From assembly GCF_004216915.1 (NCBI RefSeq), contig NZ_SGXD01000002.1:992001-1056000 (forward strand): a DNA stretch of 64,000 bases. The letters run 5' to 3'. The notes beneath the pieces are model-generated. The model had not been told where the DNA came from, made no database searches, and was given only the letters and a program-made list of their open reading frames with translations. Positions 2,195 through 13,186 of the stretch are shown here, piece after piece (the first letter of the stretch is position 1; every line of letters begins with the position of its first letter). The position numbers and the translations under genes are program-made. This stretch comes from Motilibacter rhizosphaerae (GTDB lineage: Bacteria > Actinomycetota > Actinomycetes > Motilibacterales > Motilibacteraceae).

Positions 2195-3501
2195 CCGCCC
2201 TGCCCCTTCCGGTACGTGACGCCGTCCGCCGCCGGCATGCGCAGCCGCTGCGAGGCGAGCGAGAGCACGAGCAGCGTCGTGAGGTGCGGGGTGAAGAACA
2301 CCAGCTGCTGCGGGACCTCGTCCGAGAGCTGGTACCACGCGAAGAACGCCGCCGCGGCGACCAGCGCCACGACCGCCCCGACCTGCCGCCGGCGGTACGC
2401 GTTGAGCAGCACCGCGAGCAGCAGCAGGATCGTGACGAACAGCAGCAGGCCGTGGACCGCGACGGGCCCGCCGCGCAGCTGCACCGCGTCGGTGTAGCCG
2501 AAGAGCCCGGCACCGGCGGCCAGGCCGCCCGGTCGCCAGTTGCCGAAGATCATGGCGGCGAGGCCGATGTAGCCGCGGCCACCGGTCTGGCCCTCGCGGT
2601 AGATCGAGGACGACACGGTGACGAGGAAGACCCCGGCCATCCCGGCGAGCGCGCCGGAGATGACGACGCCGGCGTACTTGAGGCGGTAGACGTCGATGCC
2701 CAGCGACTCGGCGGCGACGGGGTTCTCCCCGCAGGAGCGCAGCCGCAGGCCGAACGCCGTGCGCCACAGCACGAGGTAGCTCGCCGGCACGAGCAGCACG
2801 GCGATGACGGTGAGCCAGGTGAGCTGCGTGGTGACGCCGCGCAGGATGCCGGCGACGTCGGAGAGCAGGAACCAGTGCCGGCTCTCCAGCCCGCGCAGCA
2901 GGTAGTCCGCTCCTGGCACGGAGATCGAGGAGAAGCCCGGGACCGGCGGGGACTGCGTGGGACCACCCCCGCTCTCGCCGGTGAACAGCTGCCCGGACAG
3001 GTAGCGCGCCGCGCCCCCCGCGAGGATGGTGATCGCCACGCCGGAGACGATCTGGTCGACGCCGAAGCTCACCGTCGCGACCGCGTGGAGCAGCCCTCCG
3101 AGGGCCCCGAACGCGAGCCCGCCGAGCAGGCCGACCCACGGGCTACCGGACTTCCAGGCGGTGAACGCGCCGCCCCAGGTCCCGAGGATCATCATCCCCT
3201 CGAGCCCGATGTTGACGACGCCCGCGCGCTCTGACCACAGGCCACCGAGGCCGGCGAGGCCGACGGGCACCGAGAGCGAGAGCGTCGCGCCCATGACGCC
3301 GGCGCTGGTGAGGTCGTCCACCCCGGAGATGAGCCGGACCAGGGACAGCAGCACGAGGAGGCCGAGCAGCCCGAGCAGGAGCTCGCGGGGGCCCGTACGC
3401 CGGCTGGCGAGGCGGGCGCGCCCCAGCCCGGTCTCGCCCCCGACGACCGTGCGGGAGAGCTCCCCGCCGCCGACCGGACCGCTGCCTGCGTCGATGCTCA
3501 T
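2191..3501 (-). CDS. ABC transporter permease, nucleoside type (second permease)
   Basis: A 436-residue inner-membrane permease of the branched-chain amino acid/ribose-type (BPD_transp_2) family, as found in BMP-dependent nucleoside importers. It has about ten hydrophobic segments; the family core is seen as LWSERAGVVNIGLEGMMILG near the N-terminus and GENPVAAESLGIDVYRLKY in the cytoplasmic coupling loop. A hydrophilic N-terminal extension of about 35 residues precedes the first membrane helix, and the C-terminus is longer than usual, with two or three extra helices. Start and stop overlap the neighbours (ATGA on both sides). It should pair with the permease upstream and the ATPase to form the channel. 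Confidence 0.93.
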   Translation of the reverse strand: MSIDAGSGPVGGGELSRTVVGGETGLGRARLASRRTGPRELLLGLLGLLVLLSLVRLISGVDDLTSAGVMGATLSLSVPVGLAGLGGLWSERAGVVNIGLEGMMILGTWGGAFTAWKSGSPWVGLLGGLAFGALGGLLHAVATVSFGVDQIVSGVAITILAGGAARYLSGQLFTGESGGGPTQSPPVPGFSSISVPGADYLLRGLESRHWFLLSDVAGILRGVTTQLTWLTVIAVLLVPASYLVLWRTAFGLRLRSCGENPVAAESLGIDVYRLKYAGVVISGALAGMAGVFLVTVSSSIYREGQTGGRGYIGLAAMIFGNWRPGGLAAGAGLFGYTDAVQLRGGPVAVHGLLLFVTILLLLAVLLNAYRRRQVGAVVALVAAAAFFAWYQLSDEVPQQLVFFTPHLTTLLVLSLASQRLRMPAADGVTYRKGQGG

Positions 3502-4613
3502 GCCGCCACCTCCGCGGGCACGCCGGGACGGGAGGAGAGCTGCGCGGCGACCCGCCGCTGCTGGCGCACGAGGTCGAGGCGGCGCACCAGCTCGTACGCG
3601 ACGACGACCGAGAGCACGACCGTGCCCTGGGTGATCTGCACGATCTCCTTCGGGACGCCGTTGATGTCGAGGATCAGCGCGGACTGGTCGAGGAACGCCC
3701 ACAGCAGCGCGCCGAACGCGATGCCCACCGGGTTGTTGCGCCCCAGCAGGGCGATCGCGATGCCCGTGAAGCCCAGCCCCGACGGGAAGTCGAGGGAGTA
3801 GGTGTGGCTCTCCCCCAGCAGGTTCGGCATGCCGACGAGGCCCGCCACCGCACCGCTCAGCACCATGCTCGTCAGCACCATCCGCCGGACATCGACGCCG
3901 CTCGCGAGCGCCGCCGAGGACGAGCGCCCGGTCGCGCGCAGGTCGAAGCCGAAGCGGGTGCGGTTGACCAGCACGTGGAAGCCCACGCCGACCGCGACCG
4001 CGAGGAGCACGAGGCCGTAGACCTGCGTGTCCGCACCGGGGATGAGCGAGAAGCCGCCGACCTGGCCCGAGGGCGGGATCGGCTTGGTGCCGATGTTGTT
4101 GCTGCCGGCGCTGGTCACCGCCAGCAGCTTCGGCGTCAGGAGGTACGCCACGACCCCCGTCGCGATGTAGTTCAGCATGATCGTCGAGATGACCTCGCTG
4201 ACCCCGCGGGTCACCTTGAGCAGGCCGGCGATGCCGGCCCACAGCGCGCCCACGAGCGCGGCGGTGAGGATGACCGCCGCCTGGCGCAGCCCGGTCGGCA
4301 GCGCCCACGACCCGCCCACCGCCGCGGACAGGATCGCCGCGAGGCGGTACTGGCCGTCGACGCCGATGTTGAACAGGTTCATCCGGAACCCGATGGCCAC
4401 CGCGATCGCCGACAGGTAGTACGTCGTGGCGTTGTTGACGATCGTCGCCTCGGAGTTGGCGCTGGTGCCGTAGGACGCCATCTGCTCGAGGACGTGCAGC
4501 GGGTTGTGGCCGCTGACGACGAGCACCACGGAGGTGATGACCGCCGCGAAGACGAAGGCCAGCACCGCCGCCGCCAGTCCGAGGAGCAGGCGGTCCACCC
4601 GCTCGCGCCTCAT
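3498..4613 (-). CDS. ABC transporter permease, nucleoside type (first permease)
   Basis: A 371-residue BPD_transp_2-family permease with about nine or ten membrane segments. The diagnostic stretch IGFRMNLFNIGVDGQY and the loop FDLRATGRSSSAALASGVDV match the permeases of nucleoside and simple-sugar ABC importers. It is the partner of the permease encoded next, and the two differ enough to form a heterodimeric pore. The ATG at 4613 overlaps the ATPase stop (ATGA), which fixes the start and argues against the longer open frame upstream. The substrate is inferred from the cdd, deoA and add genes downstream in the same operon. Confidence 0.93.
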   Translation of the reverse strand: MRRERVDRLLLGLAAAVLAFVFAAVITSVVLVVSGHNPLHVLEQMASYGTSANSEATIVNNATTYYLSAIAVAIGFRMNLFNIGVDGQYRLAAILSAAVGGSWALPTGLRQAAVILTAALVGALWAGIAGLLKVTRGVSEVISTIMLNYIATGVVAYLLTPKLLAVTSAGSNNIGTKPIPPSGQVGGFSLIPGADTQVYGLVLLAVAVGVGFHVLVNRTRFGFDLRATGRSSSAALASGVDVRRMVLTSMVLSGAVAGLVGMPNLLGESHTYSLDFPSGLGFTGIAIALLGRNNPVGIAFGALLWAFLDQSALILDINGVPKEIVQITQGTVVLSVVVAYELVRRLDLVRQQRRVAAQLSSRPGVPAEVAA

Positions 4614-6139
4614 GCCGACGCTCCGGCGGACGCTCCGGTCATGGCCGAGCCCAGCTCCTCGGGGGTGGTCGTACGCGGGTCGACCTCGGCGACGAGCCTG
4701 CCGCGCAGGACGACCACGAGGGTGTCCGACATGCCGAGCAGCTCGTCGAGGTCGGCGGAGATGAGCAGCACGGCGAGCCCGGCCGCGCGCGCCGCGCGCA
4801 GCGCGTCCCAGATCTGCGCCTGCGCGCCGACGTCGACGCCGCGGGTCGGGTGCGAGGCGATGAGCACCGAGGGCGACCCGCTCATCTCGCGGCCCACGAT
4901 GAGCTTCTGCTGGTTGCCGCCGGACAGCGACGAGGCGAGCACGTCGATCCCGGGCGTGCGCACGTCGAAGTCCCGGACGATGCGCCGGGTGTCCTCCTGC
5001 GCGCCGCCGCGGTCGATCCAGGGGCCCTTCACGTTGGGGCTGCGGGTCTGGTGGCCGAGGATGCGGTTCTCCCACAGCGGCGCCTCGAGCAGCAGGCCGT
5101 GGCGGTGCCGGTCCTCCGGGATGTAGCCGATGCCGGCCTCGCGCCGGCGCCGGGTCGTCCAGGTCGAGACGTCCTCGCCGGCGAGCAGCACGGTGCCCTG
5201 CGCCGGGCGCATGCCCATGAGCGCCTCGACGAGCTCGGCCTGGCCGTTGCCCTCGACCCCGGCGATGCCGAGGATCTCGCCGCGCCGGATGCGCAGGGAG
5301 ACGTCGTCGACGACGGGCCGCCCGTCCGCCCCGGTGACGGTGAGCCCGCGGACGACGAGCTCCTCGACGTCGGTGACGGTCGACTCGCGCAGCTCCGGGA
5401 CTGGCAGCTCGCTGCCCACCATCATCTGGGCGAGCTGGCGCGCGGTCACCTCGCCGGGCACGGCCGAGCCGACCGTGGTGCCCCGCCGGATGACGGTGAT
5501 GTCGTCGGCGACGGCGAGCACCTCGTCGAGCTTGTGGGAGATGAAGATGACGGTGAGCCCCTCGGCCTTGAGCCCGCGCAGGTTGCCGAAGAGCTCGTCG
5601 ACCTCCTGCGGGACGAGCACGGCGGTCGGCTCGTCGAGGATCAGCGTGCGGGCGCCGCGGTAGAGCACCTTGAGGATCTCCACGCGCTGGCGGTCACCGA
5701 CGCCGAGGTCCTCGACGAGCACGTCGGGGCGGATGCCCAGGCCGTACGCGTCGCTGATCCCGCGGATGCGCCGGCGCGCCTCCTTGAGGTCGAGGGTGCC
5801 GCGCCGCGTCGGCTCCGCGCCGAGCACGACGTTCTCGAGCACGGTGAGGTTGTCCGCGAGCATGAAGTGCTGGTGCACCATGCCGATCCCCGCGGCGATC
5901 GCGTCGGCCGGCGAGGAGAAGACGACCGGCCGCCCGTCGACCTCGACGGTGCCCTCGTCGGGCTTGTGCATGCCGTACAGGGTCTTCATCAACGTCGACT
6001 TGCCGGCGCCGTTCTCCCCCACGACGGCGTGGACGGTGCCGCGCCGGACCGTGATGTCGATGTCCCGGTTGGCGACGACGCCCGGGAAGCGCTTGGTGAT
6101 GCCGCGCAGCGCCACCGCAGGGACGTCGGCAGCGGGCAC
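4610..6139 (-). CDS. ABC transporter ATP-binding protein with two nucleotide-binding domains, nucleoside type
   Basis: A protein of about 509 residues with two fused ABC domains, as in ribose and BMP-dependent nucleoside importers. Domain 1 has Walker A GENGAGKST, a signature in the LGVGDRQRVEIL region and Walker B LILDEPTAV. Domain 2 has a degenerate P-loop GVEGNGQAE, LSGGNQQK and Walker B LIASHPTRGVDVG, the usual asymmetry of this family. The start is uncertain. GTG 6139 gives the family length. GTG 6232 (540 residues) lies inside a perfect terminator hairpin and adds an Ala/Pro-rich tail. A GGGGGAGGA ribosome-site-like tract sits five bases before an in-frame ATT at 6172. The stop overlaps the next permease. 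Confidence 0.92.
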   Translation of the reverse strand: MPAADVPAVALRGITKRFPGVVANRDIDITVRRGTVHAVVGENGAGKSTLMKTLYGMHKPDEGTVEVDGRPVVFSSPADAIAAGIGMVHQHFMLADNLTVLENVVLGAEPTRRGTLDLKEARRRIRGISDAYGLGIRPDVLVEDLGVGDRQRVEILKVLYRGARTLILDEPTAVLVPQEVDELFGNLRGLKAEGLTVIFISHKLDEVLAVADDITVIRRGTTVGSAVPGEVTARQLAQMMVGSELPVPELRESTVTDVEELVVRGLTVTGADGRPVVDDVSLRIRRGEILGIAGVEGNGQAELVEALMGMRPAQGTVLLAGEDVSTWTTRRRREAGIGYIPEDRHRHGLLLEAPLWENRILGHQTRSPNVKGPWIDRGGAQEDTRRIVRDFDVRTPGIDVLASSLSGGNQQKLIVGREMSGSPSVLIASHPTRGVDVGAQAQIWDALRAARAAGLAVLLISADLDELLGMSDTLVVVLRGRLVAEVDPRTTTPEELGSAMTGASAGASA

Positions 6140-6231
6140 GGCGGGTGCCGCGGGTGCGGGTGTCGCGGGAATGGGAGTCCTCCCCCGGTGCGTGCGCTGG
6201 TGGGCGCGGGCGGACGTGCCGGACAGCAGCA

Positions 6232-6280
6232 CGACGGGCCCGTGGGGGGACGGTACTCCTGTCCCCCCACGGGCCCGTCG
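6232..6280 (-). terminator. Perfect 20-bp hairpin between the binding-protein gene and the ATPase
   Basis: The arms 6232-6251 and 6261-6280 are exactly complementary around a 9-base loop. There is no U-tract on the minus strand, so it may act as an attenuator or mRNA-stabilising stem that leaves the bmp transcript in excess over the ABC genes. Confidence 0.85.
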
Positions 6281-6294
6281 CGACGAGCCGGGTG

Positions 6295-7461
6295 CTAGCC
6301 GACCGTCTCCGGGACGGTGAGCGCGCCGCTGGTGATCTTCGAGGCGAAGTCATCGATCTTGGACTCGTACGGCTGCAGCGCCGGGTTGGACTTGGCGTAG
6401 CCCACGCCGCCGCTCTTGAGGTCGAACCGCTTGAAGCCAGCGGTGAACGAGCCCTTGGCGACGCCCTCGATGAAGGAGTCCACCGCGACGTCGACGCCCT
6501 TGAGCGCCGAGGTCAGGATCCACTGCTTCTGGTCCGCCGGAGCGCTCTGGTACTGGTCGCTGTCGACGCCGATCGCCCACTTCTTGCTGGCCGCCGCCGC
6601 CTGGAACAGCCCGGAGCCCGAGCCGCCGGCCGCGTGGTAGACCACGTCGGCGCCCTTGTCGTACATGCCCTGCGCGGTGACCTTGGCCTTGGCCGGGTCG
6701 TTGAAGCCGCTGAAGTCCGGCGGCTGCGAGAGGTAGGCCACGTCGACCTTGTCGCTCGGGTCGACGGCCTTGACGCCCGCCGCGAACCCGGCCTGGAACT
6801 TCTGGATCAGCGGGGTCTGCACGCCGCCGATGAAGCCCACGTGCTTGGTCTTGCTGGCCAGCGCGGCCGCGACGCCGACGAGGAACGAGCTCTGGTTCTC
6901 CGTGAAGACCAGGCCCTCGACGTTGGGCGCCTTGATGGAGTTGTCGTCGACGATCGCGAACTGCGTCTTCGGGAACTTCGGCGCGACCTTGCCGAGCGCG
7001 GTCGCGTAGGCGAAGCCGACGGCCACGATCGGGTTGTAGCCCGACTGCGCGAGCAGCGTGAGCCGCTCGCCCTTCTGCGCGTCCGTCTCGCCCTGGACCG
7101 CGGAGAGCTCCTTGGTCTGGATCGTCAGCGACTGCTTGGCCTTGTCGAGGCCGGCCGCCGCCAGGTCGTTGAACGACTTGTCCCCGCGGCCGCCCACGTC
7201 GTAGGCCAGGCCCACCTTGACGGTCTTCCCGGTCGTCGTGCCGCCGCTGCTGGCGCCGCCGCTCGGGGCCGCGCTCGCCGCGCCGGAGCCCGCTGCGTCG
7301 GACCCGCCGGCCGCGGACGCCGCGGGCGCGCTGGACGCCCCCGCGCTGGTCCCGCCGGCCGCGGAGCCGCTCGAGCTCCCCCCGCTCGAGCTGCTGCCGC
7401 ACCCGGCCAGCGCCAGCGCGGCGACGGCCGCCCCTGCCGCCGTGCGTACGAAGAAGCGCAC
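6295..7461 (-). CDS. BMP-family substrate-binding lipoprotein (nucleoside binding)
   Basis: A 388-residue secreted lipoprotein of the basic membrane protein (Bmp/Med) family, the extracytoplasmic receptor for the nucleoside ABC importer downstream. It has a short N-region, a hydrophobic stretch and the lipobox ALAGC, followed by a low-complexity Ser/Gly/Ala linker of about 60 residues. The globular domain starts with VKVGLAYDVGGRGDKSFNDLA, characteristic of the family. GTG 7461 is preferred over the ATGs at 7476 and 7485 because GGGGAG lies five bases before it. It is first in the operon, separated from the ATPase by a strong hairpin. The long disordered linker is typical of high-GC actinobacterial lipoproteins. 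Confidence 0.93.
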   Translation of the reverse strand: MRFFVRTAAGAAVAALALAGCGSSSSGGSSSGSAAGGTSAGASSAPAASAAGGSDAAGSGAASAAPSGGASSGGTTTGKTVKVGLAYDVGGRGDKSFNDLAAAGLDKAKQSLTIQTKELSAVQGETDAQKGERLTLLAQSGYNPIVAVGFAYATALGKVAPKFPKTQFAIVDDNSIKAPNVEGLVFTENQSSFLVGVAAALASKTKHVGFIGGVQTPLIQKFQAGFAAGVKAVDPSDKVDVAYLSQPPDFSGFNDPAKAKVTAQGMYDKGADVVYHAAGGSGSGLFQAAAASKKWAIGVDSDQYQSAPADQKQWILTSALKGVDVAVDSFIEGVAKGSFTAGFKRFDLKSGGVGYAKSNPALQPYESKIDDFASKITSGALTVPETVG

Positions 7462-7537
7462 GTCTGCTCCCCACATGATCGACATGCCCTGGTCGAGGGC
7501 CGTTGCCGGAAGGCTATGGCACCAGACCTTAGGGGGA

Positions 7538-8815
7538 CTACGTACGTGACGAGACTGTTACCGAGCGGTAGCACGCCAGCAGCGCGGTGGCCGCGAGCGC
7601 CCTCGCGCCGACCGGGATGCAGCGCTCGTCGACGTCGAAGCCGCCCTGGTGCAGGTCGCGCAGCACGGGGTCGCCGGGCTTCGCGGTGCCGAGCCGGGCC
7701 AGGGCGCCGGGCACGTGCTCGAGGTACCACGCGAAGTCCTCGCCCCCGAGGCTCTGCGGCGTGGGGACGACGGCCTGGCGGCCCTCGGTGCGGCGCACCG
7801 CCTCGGCGAGCAGGTCCGCGCAGGCCTGCTCGTTGTCGACCGGCGGGACCCCGCGGACGTACTGCACCTCGACCGCCACGCCGTACGGCGAGACGACCGC
7901 CTCCGCCAGGGAGCGGACGAGCGCGGGCGCGCTGGTCCAGGTCGCCGAGTCCAGGCAGCGCACGGTGCCCTCGGCCTCGCCGCGCTCGGGGATCGCGTTG
8001 GGCGCGGACCCCGACGCGATGCGGCCCCAGACGAGGCTGAGCCCCGCGCGCGGGTCGGTGCGCCGCCCCAGCGCCGCGGGCAGCTCGGAGACGAGCACGC
8101 CGAGCGCGTGCACGAGGTCGGCGGTGAGGTGCGGGCGGGCGGTGTGCCCGCCCGGGCCGCGCAGCACGACCTTGACCCGGTCGCAGGCGGCGGTGATCGG
8201 GCCCTCGCGCACGCCGACCCGGCCGACCTCGAGGCGCGGGTCGCAGTGCAGCGCGAAGATCTCGTCGACGTCGACGATCCCGCGGGCGGCGATGACGTCG
8301 AGCGCACCACCCGGCATCTGCTCCTCCGCCGGCTGGAAGAGCAGCCGGACGCGCCCGGGGAGCCCGCCCGCGCGCTCGAGCTCGCGCAGCGCCAGCCCCG
8401 CGCCGAGCACGCACGCGGTGTGCACGTCGTGCCCGCAGGCGTGGGCCATGCCCTCGACGGTCGAGCGGTAGGGCACCTCCTTGAGGTCGCGCACGGGCAG
8501 CGCGTCGATGTCCGCCCGCAGGGCGACGGCACGGTCGCCCTCGCCGAGGTCGCACCACAGCCCGGTGCCCTTCGGGAAGACGTGCGGCTCGATCCCCTCG
8601 GCGGCGAGCCGCTCGGCCAGCAGCCGCGTGGTGCGCACCTCGGCCCGGCCGAGCTCGGGGTGCGCGTGCAGGTCGCGGCGCAGCGCGACGAGCTCGGCCT
8701 CCAGGCCGGCGACCTGCTCCCCGAGCAGGGCGAGGCCGCGGTCCGGGCCCGGGCCGTCGAGCCCCTCGGAGGGCTGCTCGTGGGCCTGCGTCCCCGTCGC
8801 GAGCTCGCTCGTCAC
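7538..8815 (-). CDS. M20-family amidohydrolase
   Basis: A 425-residue peptidase M20/amidohydrolase protein, the group that hydrolyses N-acyl amino acids, hippurate-like amides or indole-acetyl conjugates. Metal-site motifs are visible: RRDLHAHPELG, ALRADIDALPV, HACGHDVHT (metal ligands), FQPAEEQMPGGA (catalytic Glu-Glu) and the late GGEDFAWY. The dimerisation domain is between these. GTG 8815 was chosen because of a GGAGGGGG tract upstream; the longer frame to 8857 has no better signal. It is transcribed toward the bmp lipoprotein gene with a gap of 76 bases, so it may be co-transcribed. The substrate is not predictable; it is cytosolic because no signal peptide is present. Confidence 0.92.
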   Translation of the reverse strand: MTSELATGTQAHEQPSEGLDGPGPDRGLALLGEQVAGLEAELVALRRDLHAHPELGRAEVRTTRLLAERLAAEGIEPHVFPKGTGLWCDLGEGDRAVALRADIDALPVRDLKEVPYRSTVEGMAHACGHDVHTACVLGAGLALRELERAGGLPGRVRLLFQPAEEQMPGGALDVIAARGIVDVDEIFALHCDPRLEVGRVGVREGPITAACDRVKVVLRGPGGHTARPHLTADLVHALGVLVSELPAALGRRTDPRAGLSLVWGRIASGSAPNAIPERGEAEGTVRCLDSATWTSAPALVRSLAEAVVSPYGVAVEVQYVRGVPPVDNEQACADLLAEAVRRTEGRQAVVPTPQSLGGEDFAWYLEHVPGALARLGTAKPGDPVLRDLHQGGFDVDERCIPVGARALAATALLACYRSVTVSSRT

Positions 8816-8949
8816 GCCTGCCGCACCCCCTCCTCGACCGCACCCGTCCTCGGGCAAGCCTCGCAGACGGGCCCGGGCACGGCGTACCGGAGTCCTCCCC
8901 AGGAGCGGCGGGTGGAACGCCGAGGCCCCCTGCGACGTTCGCAGACGTC

Positions 8950-10635
8950 GTGCAGCAGCCCCTCCGCGCCGCCGTCGTCGCCCGGGTCCCGACCCTCGCC
9001 GCGGCGGGCGGCTACGTCATCGGCACGGCCGGCGTGGTGCGCGCGCTGCTGCCGCACCGCGCCTTCGACGACCTCAACCACCTGGTGCCGGCGACCCTGC
9101 TCGGCGTCTCCCGCGCGGCCGAGGTCGGCGTCGGCGTCCTCCTGGCGCTGCTCGCCTCCGGCCTGCGCCGGCGCAAGCGCGCAGCCCACGTCGGGGTCTG
9201 CGCCCTCCTGCTGGGCAACGGCGCCTTCCACCTCGCGGTGGGGCTGCACGTCGTGGGGGCGGCCGTCGAGCTGCTGGCGGGGCTGCTGCTCGCCCTGCGC
9301 TGGCGCGACTTCCCCGCCAGCGGCGACCCCCGCACCCGCGTCCGCGCGCTGGGCGTCCTCGTGGGGCTGGGGGTCCTGGACGTCGCGCTCGGATGGGTGC
9401 TGGTGCGCCTGCGCGAGGACGACGGCAACAGCGTGGGGACCGAGCTGCGCCACGTCGTCGAAGGGCTCGTCGGCATCACCGGCCCGCTCGACTTCACGAG
9501 CGACCGGGCGAGCGCCGTCGTGGCCGCGGTGCTGCCCACGCTCGGCGGCGTGACCCTGTTGACGACCGCGTGGCTCCTGCTGCGCCCGTACGCGCCGGCC
9601 CCCGGCCAGGACGTCGCCGCCACCGAGCAGGCCCGTGCGCTGCTCGACCGGCAGGGCGAGCGCGACTCGCTCGGCTACTTCGCGCTGCGCGACGACAAGC
9701 AGCTGCTGTTCTCGGCGAGCGGGAAGGCGGCGGTCGCGTACCGCGTGGTGTCGGGGGTCATGCTCGCCAGCGGCGACCCGCTCGGCGACCCGGAGGCCTG
9801 GCCGGGCGCCATCGAGGCGTTCCAGGCGGAGGCCCGGCGCCACGCCTGGCTCCCCGCCGTCCTCGGCTGCGGAGAGGCGGGGGCCGAGGCGTGGGCGCGC
9901 CACGCCGGCGCCGCGGCCCTGGAGCTCGGCGACGAGGCCGTCATCGACGTGGCGACCTTCTCGCTCGAGGGCCGGGCGATGCGCAACGTGCGCCAGATGG
10001 TCCGCCGGGTGCAGCGGGCGGGCTACTGCACCCGCGTGGTCCGCGTGGCCGACCTCGAGCCCGCGGAGGCCGCGCTGGTCGCCGCTGCCGCGGACCGCTG
10101 GCGCGGCTCGGCCACGGAGCGCGGCTTCTCGATGGCCCTCGGCCGCTGCGCCGACCCCCGTGACCCCGGGGCCGTCGTCGCGCTGGCCGAGCGGGAGGGC
10201 CAGCTCGCCGCGGTCCTGCAGCTCGTGCCGTGGGGGCGCCACGGGCTCTCCCTCGACCTCATGCGCCGTGACCCGGGCGCCGACCCGGGGCTCAACGAGC
10301 TCCTCATCGTCGCGGTGCTGCAGGCGGCGGCCGAGCTCGAGGTCTCCCGCGTCTCCCTCAACTTCGCGGTGTTCCGCAGCGCCCTCGACCGCGGGCGCCG
10401 GATCGGCGCGGGTCCTGTCCTGCGGCTGTGGTGCCGCGTGCTGCTGATCGCGTCGAAGTGGTTCCAGATCGAGTCGCTGTTCCGCTTCAACGCGAAGTTC
10501 GGGCCGCGCTGGGAGCCCCGCTTCGTGGTCTACCCCTCGGCGGGCGACCTGCCGCACGTCCTGCTCGCGGCGCTCGAGGCCGAGGCCTTCGTCGTCCGGC
10601 CGGAGCTGCGCTTCTTCCAGAAGCGGCGCGCCTGA
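8950..10635 (+). CDS. MprF-like aminoacyl-lipid synthase (DUF2156/LPG synthase C domain)
   Basis: A 561-residue membrane enzyme. The first ~215 residues hold about six hydrophobic segments, shorter than the 14-helix flippase domain of MprF. The cytosolic C-terminal half is the tandem GNAT-like LPG synthase domain. Visible marks are RDSLGYFALRDDKQLLFS, a GDPLGDPE turn, RNVRQMVRRVQRAGY, a MALGR motif followed by an acidic loop, LMRRDPGADPGLNELL and a final KFGPRWEPRFVVYP. Enzymes of this family transfer lysine or alanine from aminoacyl-tRNA to phosphatidylglycerol or diacylglycerol. Its stop overlaps the next ATG (TGATG), tying it to a membrane-anchored esterase. The amino acid and lipid used are not readable. 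The GTG start lacks a clear ribosome site. Confidence 0.9.
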   Translation: MQQPLRAAVVARVPTLAAAGGYVIGTAGVVRALLPHRAFDDLNHLVPATLLGVSRAAEVGVGVLLALLASGLRRRKRAAHVGVCALLLGNGAFHLAVGLHVVGAAVELLAGLLLALRWRDFPASGDPRTRVRALGVLVGLGVLDVALGWVLVRLREDDGNSVGTELRHVVEGLVGITGPLDFTSDRASAVVAAVLPTLGGVTLLTTAWLLLRPYAPAPGQDVAATEQARALLDRQGERDSLGYFALRDDKQLLFSASGKAAVAYRVVSGVMLASGDPLGDPEAWPGAIEAFQAEARRHAWLPAVLGCGEAGAEAWARHAGAAALELGDEAVIDVATFSLEGRAMRNVRQMVRRVQRAGYCTRVVRVADLEPAEAALVAAAADRWRGSATERGFSMALGRCADPRDPGAVVALAEREGQLAAVLQLVPWGRHGLSLDLMRRDPGADPGLNELLIVAVLQAAAELEVSRVSLNFAVFRSALDRGRRIGAGPVLRLWCRVLLIASKWFQIESLFRFNAKFGPRWEPRFVVYPSAGDLPHVLLAALEAEAFVVRPELRFFQKRRA

Positions 10636-11846
10636 TGCTGCCCGAGCTGATCGGCCTCCCCCTGGTCGTGCTGCTCGTCGTGCTCGCGCTCGCGGCCGCC
10701 CTCGGAGGTGCGCTGCTCTGGCCGCGGCTCGCCCGCACCGGCCCCCTCACCGTGCTCGCGCGCGTCGGGGTGCTCGTGCTCTGCCAGGTGACCGCCGTCG
10801 CCCTGCTCGCCGACCTCGTCAACCGCCAGTACGCCTTCTTCACCTCCTGGGACGACCTGCTCGGGCGCCCGCCCGCGGAGGCCGTCGCGGGGCACCTGCC
10901 GGTCCCCGAGCACTACCGCGTCGGCGTGCTGCCGCTCGCGCAGGCGCAGGTGCACGGCGAGCTGCTCGACGAGGCGCTGCCCGGCGCGACGACGCACCTG
11001 ACGGGCGCGGCCTACGTCTACCTGCCCCCGGAGTACTTCTCGCCCCGCTGGGCCGGCGTGCGCTTCCCCGTGGCCGTCTGGCTCGCGGGCTACCCCGGCA
11101 GCGGCGACACGATCGTCCAGCACCTCGACCTCGTCCAGGCGATGCAGACCGAGGTGGACCTCCACCACGCGCAGCCGATGGTGCTCGTCATGATGAGCCC
11201 CACGCTCGCCCCGCCCCGGGACACCGAGTGCGCGGACGTGCCGCACGGGCCGCAGGTGAGGACCTACTTCGAGCGCGACCTGCCGCAGCTGCTCGAGTCG
11301 CGCTACCGCGTGGCGCGCGCCCGCACGGGGTGGGCGGTCGACGGCATCTCGACCGGGGGCTTCTGCGCCGCCACGCTGCTCCTGCACGACCCGCAGCGCT
11401 ACGCCACCGGGGTCTCGGTCAGCGGCTACTACTCCGCGCTGCTCGACGGCACGACCGGTGCGCTGTACGCCGGCAGCCAGGCCCTGCGCGACGACAACGA
11501 CCCGCTCTGGCTGCTCGCGCACCGGCCCGCGCCGCCCGTCGCCCTGCTCATCACCGCCTCGCGGCAGGAGAAGGAGGTCTACGCCCAGTCGCTCGCCCTG
11601 CTGCGAGCGGCGCGGGCGCCGATGACGGTGGACGCCCGCTTCGTGCAGTCGGGCGGTCACAACTACACCGTCTTCCGGGCCGAGGTCCCCGCCGTCCTGG
11701 ACTGGCTGTCGGCGCGACTGCAGCCCGAGACCGACGAGCCGGTCGCGGTGCGCTCGACGACCGGCGCGCCGCGGCACTCGCGGCCCGGAGGGCGTCCCCG
11801 CACCGCCGTCGTCAGGAGCTCGCCTCGAGCAGCGCCCGGGCGATGA
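10635..11846 (+). CDS. Membrane-anchored alpha/beta-hydrolase (esterase-D/mycolyltransferase-like fold)
   Basis: A 403-residue protein with two N-terminal membrane helices (about residues 5-29 and 39-61), then a domain predicted outside the membrane with the putative-esterase fold. The nucleophile is Ser239 in GISTGG, preceded by WAVDG. The catalytic His is likely in the late GGHNYTVF motif, with an acid in between. An oxyanion-type loop AVWLAGYPGSGD follows the first core strand. The start overlaps the synthase stop, so the two are coupled. In other actinobacteria, hydrolases next to aminoacyl-lipid synthases remove the aminoacyl group, and this is the favoured inference here. The last 35 bases overlap the convergent SGNH gene. 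Confidence 0.88.
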   Translation: MLPELIGLPLVVLLVVLALAAALGGALLWPRLARTGPLTVLARVGVLVLCQVTAVALLADLVNRQYAFFTSWDDLLGRPPAEAVAGHLPVPEHYRVGVLPLAQAQVHGELLDEALPGATTHLTGAAYVYLPPEYFSPRWAGVRFPVAVWLAGYPGSGDTIVQHLDLVQAMQTEVDLHHAQPMVLVMMSPTLAPPRDTECADVPHGPQVRTYFERDLPQLLESRYRVARARTGWAVDGISTGGFCAATLLLHDPQRYATGVSVSGYYSALLDGTTGALYAGSQALRDDNDPLWLLAHRPAPPVALLITASRQEKEVYAQSLALLRAARAPMTVDARFVQSGGHNYTVFRAEVPAVLDWLSARLQPETDEPVAVRSTTGAPRHSRPGGRPRTAVVRSSPRAAPGR

Positions 11847-12564
11847 CCTGGTGGCCCGCGGCGCTGGGGTGGTCGCCGTCCGCCGCGAGCAGGGGCGTCG
11901 GGTCCTTGCGGCCGTCGCGGCCCTTGAACGGCGCGTACGTGTCCACGCACTGCACGTGCGTCACGCGCGCCGCCGTGCAGATCGCGTCGTTGGTCGCCCG
12001 GGTCACCCGGTCGGTCTCGGCGCGGTAGTCGGCCCCCCACCGCTGCCGGGCGACGGCTCCGTCGACGGTGACGTTCCAGTAGTCGAGGAGCAGGATCCGC
12101 GTCCACGCCCCGCCGCGCAGGGCCCGGACCGCCCGCACCGAGCGCGCGAGGTTCGTCTGGACCTGCTCGAGGACGTCGTCGAAGCAGTCGCTGCCGCTGG
12201 AGCAGCGGCCGCTGCGGTAGTCCGCCAGCGCGGCGCTGACGTCGTTGGCGCCCGACATGAGCACGACCACCGAGCTCGAGCGGACGGCGTCGCGGGTCCT
12301 CCCGCGGTGGAGCAGCGCGTGCAGCAGGTCGGCCGAGGTGGAGCCCGGCACCCCCAGGTTGAGCGCGACCGTGGTGCGCCCGTCGCCCTGCAGCCCGGAG
12401 GCGTAGCGCTCGACGAAGCCGGTGCACCCGCAGGCCGAGGCCGAGACGACCGAGTCGCCGAGCCCGACGACGTACCGCGTCCGCGTGCTGGCCTCGGCCG
12501 ACCCGCAGGTCGTGGCGAGCAGCGCCGCGAGCGCCACCGCCAGCGCGCCTCGTCTGGTCCGCAC
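11812..12564 (-). CDS. Secreted SGNH/GDSL-type hydrolase
   Basis: A 250-residue exported esterase-like protein. The N-terminus is a signal peptide (two Arg, a hydrophobic run of Ala/Leu, then cleavage near AEAS). A Cys sits at residue 20, but the preceding residues TT do not make a good lipobox, so it is probably soluble. SGNH blocks are visible: VGLGDSVVSAS (block I Ser), NLGVPGS (Gly block), VVLMSGANDV (Asn block) and DGDHPSAAGH (catalytic Asp and His). Four or more Cys residues could form disulfides. GTG 12564 follows AGGAGGAG with good spacing. The natural ester substrate is unknown; cell-wall or lipid esters are possible. Confidence 0.9.
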   Translation of the reverse strand: MRTRRGALAVALAALLATTCGSAEASTRTRYVVGLGDSVVSASACGCTGFVERYASGLQGDGRTTVALNLGVPGSTSADLLHALLHRGRTRDAVRSSSVVVLMSGANDVSAALADYRSGRCSSGSDCFDDVLEQVQTNLARSVRAVRALRGGAWTRILLLDYWNVTVDGAVARQRWGADYRAETDRVTRATNDAICTAARVTHVQCVDTYAPFKGRDGRKDPTPLLAADGDHPSAAGHQVIARALLEASS

Positions 12565-12711
12565 CCGTGCTCCTCCTGCTGCTCGGCGCCCTGTGCCACC
12601 GTCGGGTGTGCTACCCGCGGCAAGCGCCCCGGGCACCGTAGCGGGCGCTCCTGTGCCCGCTCTGTGCGCGAACTCACCGACTCCCGGGCGGTGGGGAGCG
12701 ACGAACCTGAC

Positions 12712-12717
12712 TAGCAT
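12712..12717 (+). promoter_or_regulatory. Possible -10 box for the sdh operon
   Basis: TAGCAT fits the actinobacterial TANNNT pattern 76 bases upstream of sdhC; no convincing -35 element is visible, so this is tentative. The following leader can form a GGCCGG-type stem. Confidence 0.3.
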
Positions 12718-12793
12718 CGACTCGGCCGGACGAACTGCCCGGCCGGGTCCGGGTCCGCCCGGGCCCTCCGCGACCACCACGGGAAGGCCTGCT

Positions 12794-13186
12794 GTGGCCA
12801 AGGCACCGGCCGGCACGCTCTATCGCGGCCGTGAGGGCATGTGGTCCTGGGTCGCGCACCGCGTGACCGGGGTCCTCGTCTTCTTCTTCCTGTTCGCGCA
12901 CGTGCTCGACACCGCGCTGGTGCGCGTCAGCCCCGACGCGTACGACAAGGTCATCGACACCTACAAGAACCCCGTGGTCAACCTCATGGAGGTCGGCCTC
13001 GTCGGCGCGGTGCTGTTCCACGCGTTCAACGGCATCCGGGTCGTGCTGATCGACTTCTGGTCCAAGGGCCCGCGCTTCCAGCGCCAGATGCTCTGGACCG
13101 TGGTGTCGGTGTGGATCGTGCTCATGCTGGGCTTCCTCTACCCCATGACCCAGCACACGTGGGCGTACCTCTTCGGGAGCGACTGA
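12794..13186 (+). CDS. sdhC: Succinate dehydrogenase cytochrome b556 subunit
   Basis: A 130-residue three-helix membrane anchor of complex II. The motif SWVAHRVTGVLVFF corresponds to the family S-x-x-H-R-x-T-G block, and a His in FHAFNGIR is a likely haem ligand. It anchors SdhAB to the cytoplasmic membrane and takes part in quinone reduction. GTG 12794 follows GGGAAGG at good spacing; the sequence in frame upstream is not protein-like for the family. It is first in the order sdhC-sdhD-sdhA-sdhB, with its stop overlapping the sdhD ATG. Confidence 0.95.
   Translation: MAKAPAGTLYRGREGMWSWVAHRVTGVLVFFFLFAHVLDTALVRVSPDAYDKVIDTYKNPVVNLMEVGLVGAVLFHAFNGIRVVLIDFWSKGPRFQRQMLWTVVSVWIVLMLGFLYPMTQHTWAYLFGSD

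Follow-up and report, generated by a model that had tools for sequence, protein, structure and literature searches.

Why does the gene for a membrane-anchored esterase share a base with the gene for an aminoacyl-lipid synthase? The question is raised by two genes, here called gene A (the synthase) and gene B (the esterase), in a stretch of 64,000 nucleotides of the genome of Motilibacter rhizosphaerae (the window). A first-pass annotation of the bare letters had proposed a reversible membrane-charge module, in which gene A attaches an amino acid to a lipid and gene B, facing outward, removes it. The coordinates given there and the TGATG overlap of the gene A stop and the gene B start are exact (Table 1). 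Published work is cited by PMC number and for what the available excerpts of each paper state.

Table 1 Features of the gene A-gene B locus (positions in the window).
Feature	Position	Strand	Basis or remark
Stretch holding gene A, gene B and the GDSL hydrolase gene	8700..12735	.	~4 kb, absent at the same site in four family relatives
Promoter-like site GGAAC (8914-8918), N17, CGTT (8936-8939)	8914..8939	+	SigE-type by resemblance
Gene A, LysX-class aminoacyl-tRNA:lipid transferase, 561 aa	8950..10635	+	GTG start; stop TGA 10633-10635
Membrane region of gene A, PF16995, residues 11-210	8980..9579	+	Pfam E 6.4e-10 and hydropathy scan
Transferase domain of gene A, PF09924, residues 229-528	9634..10533	+	Pfam E 3.2e-87 and alignment
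TGATG, one base common to gene A stop and gene B start	10633..10637	+	sequence
Gene B, membrane-anchored esterase, 403 aa	10635..11846	+	ATG start 10635-10637; PF00756 E 1.6e-11
Two N-terminal helices of gene B, residues 8-34 and 37-65 in the model	10656..10829	+	hydropathy, model
Alpha/beta-hydrolase domain of gene B, ~residues 106-364	10950..11726	+	model; esterase D / feruloyl esterase / antigen 85 fold
Codon of C199	11229..11231	+	invariant, 58/58 and 35/35
Codon of S239, predicted nucleophile, in GISTGG (residues 237-242)	11349..11351	+	conservation
Codon of C244	11364-11366	+	invariant, 58/58 and 35/35
Codon of E312, probable acid partner of S239	11568-11570	+	less secure column
Codon of H342, probable partner of S239	11658-11660	+	conservation
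GDSL-type hydrolase gene, PF13472	11812-12816	minus	convergent with gene B, overlaps its 3' end

Domain content and alignment support gene A as an aminoacyl-tRNA:lipid transferase. Its matches to PF16995, a membrane region of LysX type, and to PF09924 both exceed the curated cut-offs. Solved lysyl-PG and alanyl-PG synthases align with its catalytic part, and its residues 19-541 can be aligned with 9j8q, a full-length phosphatidylglycerol lysyltransferase, over the C-terminal half of the latter. The LPG-synthase domain claimed for it is thus confirmed; of the six helices claimed, the hydropathy scan shows five clearly, so that the sixth is only probable. A structure model computed from the single sequence of gene A was too poor (mean pLDDT 40) to settle the helix count. 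The NCBI LysX model matches with 505.4 bits over model positions 56-575 of 1102; because the match stops there and stays below the cut-off of 742, the half of LysX that carries lysyl-tRNA synthetase (LysRS) is missing, and the domain search of the synthase rows (see below) gave no LysRS match in gene A. Nor did the Pfam scan find the flippase domain PF03706 in gene A at E values up to 0.1. PF03706 occurs at five places elsewhere in the same genome, in which gene A is the sole PF09924 match. By sequence, gene A is a synthase of the LysX class that lacks both the LysRS domain and the MprF flippase domain. It was rejected as LysX proper for want of the C-terminal synthetase domain and as classic MprF for want of PF03706; the first-pass annotation was right in calling it unlike classic MprF, yet this build is ordinary for the LysX class.

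In a quick tree of 119 transferase domains (34 weak forks, several long branches), gene A falls within the short forms of the LysX class, with 66% as its highest identity. The LysRS-fused forms branch from within these short forms, and the AlaDAGS-like synthases, from Corynebacterium, Rhodococcus and Nocardia, are remote from gene A; on this tree position an identity of gene A with AlaDAGS was rejected. Lysine is likelier than alanine as the amino acid used, but it is not assured, since gene A stands outside the LysRS-fused clade.

Gene B had been described as a two-helix esterase with a GISTGG nucleophile, and this description stands. At E values up to 0.1 its Pfam matches are Esterase (PF00756) and Peptidase_S9, and none else. 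Conservation was read in two alignments, one of 58 sequences (the named-locus set of gene B) and one of 35. The predicted nucleophile S239 is kept in all sequences of both (58/58 and 35/35), as are two cysteines, C199 and C244, which possibly form a disulfide; H342 is kept in 58/58 and in 34/35, the remaining sequence having a gap. The catalytic acid is less secure because the E312 column, which holds 56 Asp and 2 Glu in the 58-sequence set, is poorly aligned in the 35-sequence set (Gly 16, Asp 12, Glu 2). Of the structure predictions suggested earlier for both proteins, that of gene B, built from gene B and 57 relatives from named loci, was usable (mean pLDDT 80.3), and that of gene A was not. 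In the predicted model, the folds closest to the domain by score are feruloyl esterases and esterase D/S-formylglutathione hydrolases (Z up to 30), followed by antigen 85 proteins and a mycoloyltransferase of C. glutamicum (Z 24-27). Antigen 85 enzymes are acyl transferases, and the fold of gene B would therefore permit hydrolysis or transfer.

Gene B has the features of the esterases of the SCO3396/PesT/Rv1639c type, namely PF00756, membrane helices at the N-terminus, the conserved Ser and His and the cysteine pair; like them, it adjoins an aminoacyl-lipid synthase gene. It probably faces outward, as had been proposed, to judge from its two N-terminal helices, the two invariant cysteines and the appearance of Rv1639c among in vivo exported proteins (PMC5405230), a listing that supports the outside placement of the domain. 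The three K/R in the loop between the helices are a weak sign in the same sense, with the loop inside and the domain outside. The genome encodes a second esterase of the gene B family (PF00756; profile E 3.9e-88) at G000:C1:47120-48343 (L237, within ORF 4542-6254, +), an orphan that lies away from the only PF09924 gene.

Are the two genes neighbours by accident? One-base gene overlaps are common in high-GC actinobacteria, which speaks for chance. We compared 101 LysX-class synthase loci, the window and 100 from Actinomycetes chosen among search hits, a non-random set with many close relatives and some cuts at contig ends; 30 of the 101 hold an esterase of the gene B family as judged by an iterated gene B profile. 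A length filter removed one row and left 100 synthase rows including the window, 69 without and 31 with LysRS. The esterase is present in 26 of the 69 (14 divergent, 10 synthase-then-esterase, 1 esterase-then-synthase, 1 convergent) and in 4 of the 31, all synthase-then-esterase and one ~2.9 kb away. The other 70 of the 100 rows hold no such esterase in the stretch covered, some being cut by contig ends, and from this it follows that gene A's kind can work without gene B. At three loci, two or three family esterases stand in a row beside one synthase (L148 3351-6817, L107 3245-5917, L161 3945-6960).

The same linkage was seen from the side of the esterase in a scan of named genomes with Corynebacterium-type esterases, from which the best 80 of 482 relatives among the matches listed were taken. 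An LPG-synthase-domain gene is included in 65 of these best 80 of 482 loci, and the 63 of the 65 that passed the filter comprise 55 with esterase-then-synthase, 4 divergent and 4 convergent arrangements. Among the best 80 of 482 are 19 Corynebacterium loci, 17 of which have the LPG-synthase gene directly downstream of the esterase; the Corynebacterium locus L279 has a LysRS-fused synthase in convergent position, and in L301 no synthase was found in the stretch covered. In a Corynebacterium-group locus (L238 6500-10601, minus), the esterase is followed by a synthase ORF of 871 aa, which differs from the others by its longer build and branches separately in the tree.

Across 60 genomes, our own included, the esterase was found in 17 and a synthase match in 32, and all 17 have a synthase (p = 1.5e-6 if the 60 genomes were independent, which they are not). 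By coordinate count, the pair lies within 6 kb in 10 of the 17, side by side in 9, against ~0.07 places expected. Together with the 65 synthase-bearing loci among the best 80 of 482, this recurrence refutes chance adjacency, which we regard as extremely improbable. Esterase linkage is seen with two distant synthase classes and in several gene orders; gene A and gene B are a conserved module that recurs in many actinobacteria.

How might the module be switched on? A promoter-like site, GGAAC-N17-CGTT, ends 10 bases before the GTG of gene A and is among the features new here. The motif occurs 12 times in the 4.3-Mb genome, six times per strand, and its backward control 0 times. One copy ends 7 bases before the sigE gene of the genome (NCBI PRK09647, over the cut-off; L231 1333-2010, minus; G000:C3, ~506 kb), as if sigE were autoregulated; a few of the other copies are found within 20 bases of a long ORF, several are not. 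A looser promoter pattern gave no enrichment in the window (2 found vs 3.29 expected). From the resemblance of its site to that before sigE, the pair is predicted to be under the control of a SigE-type sigma factor.

Upstream of the synthases, GAAC-N16-18-CGT[CT] was counted in the 98 rows with enough upstream sequence, the expectation being obtained by shuffling. The motif stands before the synthase at 13 of 14 divergent loci (0.49 expected) and at 3 of 9 synthase-then-esterase loci, counting the window (0.20 expected). It also precedes 6 of 42 unpaired synthases (0.93 expected) and 3 of 28 unpaired LysRS forms (0.66 expected), and was found in 0 of 3 paired LysRS forms (0.18 expected) and 0 of 2 other layouts. 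Facing the esterase, the CGT[CT] motif was found in none of the 14 divergent loci; the published sco3396 promoter has CATC there. Near-copies of the published promoters, with up to 5 mismatches and the first six bases exact, occur in these 14 loci as follows: sco3396 promoter in 4, sco3397 promoter in 5, both in 3.

The pairing of synthase and esterase is already known in outline, and the window pair is a compact operon form of it. In S. coelicolor, sco3396 (Pfam Esterase) and sco3397 (mprF) are listed as targets with a single, wholly sigmaE-dependent promoter each (PMC6767563), sco3396 is confirmed as a sigmaE target (PMC10771440), and an sco3397 mutant shows raised sensitivity to vancomycin and bacitracin (PMC6767563, citing Hesketh 2011). 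The same two families are adjacent in the window, likewise behind a promoter-like site of sigmaE type. The Streptomyces genes, however, are divergent and have their own promoters, whereas the window pair is one overlapping operon behind one site. Three divergent pairs of our set (L102, L155, L159), with genes of 50-58% identity to gene A and 38-40% to gene B, are flanked by near-copies of both Streptomyces promoters with 2-4 mismatches; by promoters and layout they would be the counterparts of sco3396/sco3397.

In M. tuberculosis, Rv1639c lies immediately downstream of lysX (Rv1640c) and has a putative esterase domain (PMC9504009). As in the window, a LysX-class synthase is followed by a membrane protein with such a domain, but LysX of M. 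tuberculosis has a fused lysyl-tRNA synthetase and gene A has none. The loci L118, L119 and L124 match this arrangement; the esterase of L118 is 23% identical to gene B (E 1e-12). LysX makes lysyl-DAG, and the LysX-class and AlaDAGS enzymes assayed so far act on diacylglycerol; pesT and alaDAGS of C. glutamicum are named in the same source, and a secondary enzyme making Ala-PG is mentioned (PMC10580965). A C. glutamicum host in which pesT and alaDAGS are missing has been published. The 17 Corynebacterium loci described above hold the same esterase family directly upstream of an LPG-synthase gene, in opposite gene order and with a distant synthase class compared with the window pair. Their esterases would correspond to pesT; C. 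glutamicum itself is outside the 80 loci (best 80 of 482). PesT we take to be an esterase and also the secondary enzyme that makes Ala-PG. Altogether, sco3396-sco3397, lysX-Rv1639c and, provided that the identity with pesT holds, pesT-alaDAGS look like the same module as the window pair. No statement tying the three pairs together was found in the excerpts of the literature examined, and an earlier publication is possible.

These comparisons suggest what the pair may do. A SigE-type sigma factor, predicted from the promoter, would drive it as an aminoacyl-lipid operon under envelope-stress control. Inside the cell, gene A would draw on an aminoacyl-tRNA, with lysine likelier than alanine, and esterify its amino acid to a lipid, for which diacylglycerol is the likeliest candidate. 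The product would then reach the outer leaflet, where gene B would attack the aminoacyl ester via S239 (with H342 and probably E312) and pass the amino acid on, most likely to phosphatidylglycerol. We advance this explanation, taken as a whole, tentatively and at somewhat less than even probability. It is supported by the domains, the linkage with two synthase classes, the action of assayed LysX-class and AlaDAGS enzymes on diacylglycerol, the antigen 85 fold likeness, the promoter evidence and the sigmaE dependence of sco3396/sco3397; it is weakened by the hydrolases being the closest folds to gene B by score, by the promoter motif before unpaired synthases, by the uncertainty about lysine and by the 70 of 100 synthase rows that hold no esterase. 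It is tempting to go further and to regard aminoacyl-DAG as a membrane shuttle and gene B as an outward transacylase of antigen 85 fold with phosphatidylglycerol or a wall polymer as acceptors, a reading that we consider unlikely.

Alternatively, gene B could hydrolyse the aminoacyl lipid of gene A, so that membrane charge is set and reset. The modelled domain of gene B is nearest in fold to hydrolases, and the PA0920/PA0919 operon of P. aeruginosa, an alanyl-PG synthase beside the hydrolase of its product (PMC7916210), follows the same logic. The first-pass annotation, whose model this is, had pointed to such hydrolases beside MprF-like enzymes in other bacteria. PA0919 presumably belongs to another alpha/beta-hydrolase family than gene B. 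Disruption of Rv1639c/MMAR_2446, however, had no significant effect on lysyl-DAG according to the available text of PMC12637418, and to place the making and the removing enzyme under the same sigma factor, as would be the case for sco3396 and sco3397 (PMC6767563), would be wasteful, though still conceivable. The coupling and the probable outward placement fit the reversible module that had been proposed, but we regard removal of the amino acid by gene B as rather unlikely. The unchanged lysyl-DAG after disruption of the LysX neighbour also speaks for a third possibility, that the substrate of gene B is some other ester of the envelope, in a lipid or a wall polymer, with a shared stress response as the only link to gene A. 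The esterase arrays (L107, L148, L161) and the orphan second copy indeed suggest more than one substrate. But then it is hard to see why esterase and synthase stay linked across two distant classes of synthase and several gene orders, and why all 17 esterase-bearing genomes of the 60 have a synthase; we consider such a separate substrate quite unlikely. Between transfer outside the membrane and simple erasure, both of which are live, we lean towards transfer, which the published hints, as far as the excerpts go, fit better.

Three gene pairs that have been studied apart from one another thus seem to be a single conserved module. A decision between transfer and removal by its second enzyme, the esterase, would reveal how the charge of the envelope is adjusted in actinobacteria under stress. 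If aminoacyl-DAG were indeed a shuttle, actinobacteria in general would have in this module their own equivalent of wall D-alanylation, turned on by SigE-type sigma factors, and pesT-alaDAGS, sco3396-sco3397 and lysX-Rv1639c would be united.

How did the pair come to this site? In four family relatives, one of the same genus, the site is likewise bordered by the M20 peptidase gene and sdhC, and no match to gene A, gene B or the GDSL gene was found there. DNA similarity breaks off near 8700. In three of the relatives it returns near 12735-12740, across a gap of ~190-230 bases on their own side; in the fourth (L336) it returns at 12806, and the gap on that side is ~1.8 kb. A gene B-family esterase is absent from the whole genomes of the four relatives at E values up to 1e-5, and only one of these genomes (G002) has a synthase, a distant one of 32% identity. 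Gain of the accessory stretch is likelier than repeated loss, but G+C gives no separation of gene A and gene B from their surroundings. In the ORF set searched, the GDSL hydrolase has a relative outside the window in L148 only, and it was left out as a third part of the module on this ground. The genes of an ABC transporter whose binding protein is a PnrA-like Bmp protein (PF02608; window 3498-7485, minus) are found beside the M20 gene in the family relatives too.
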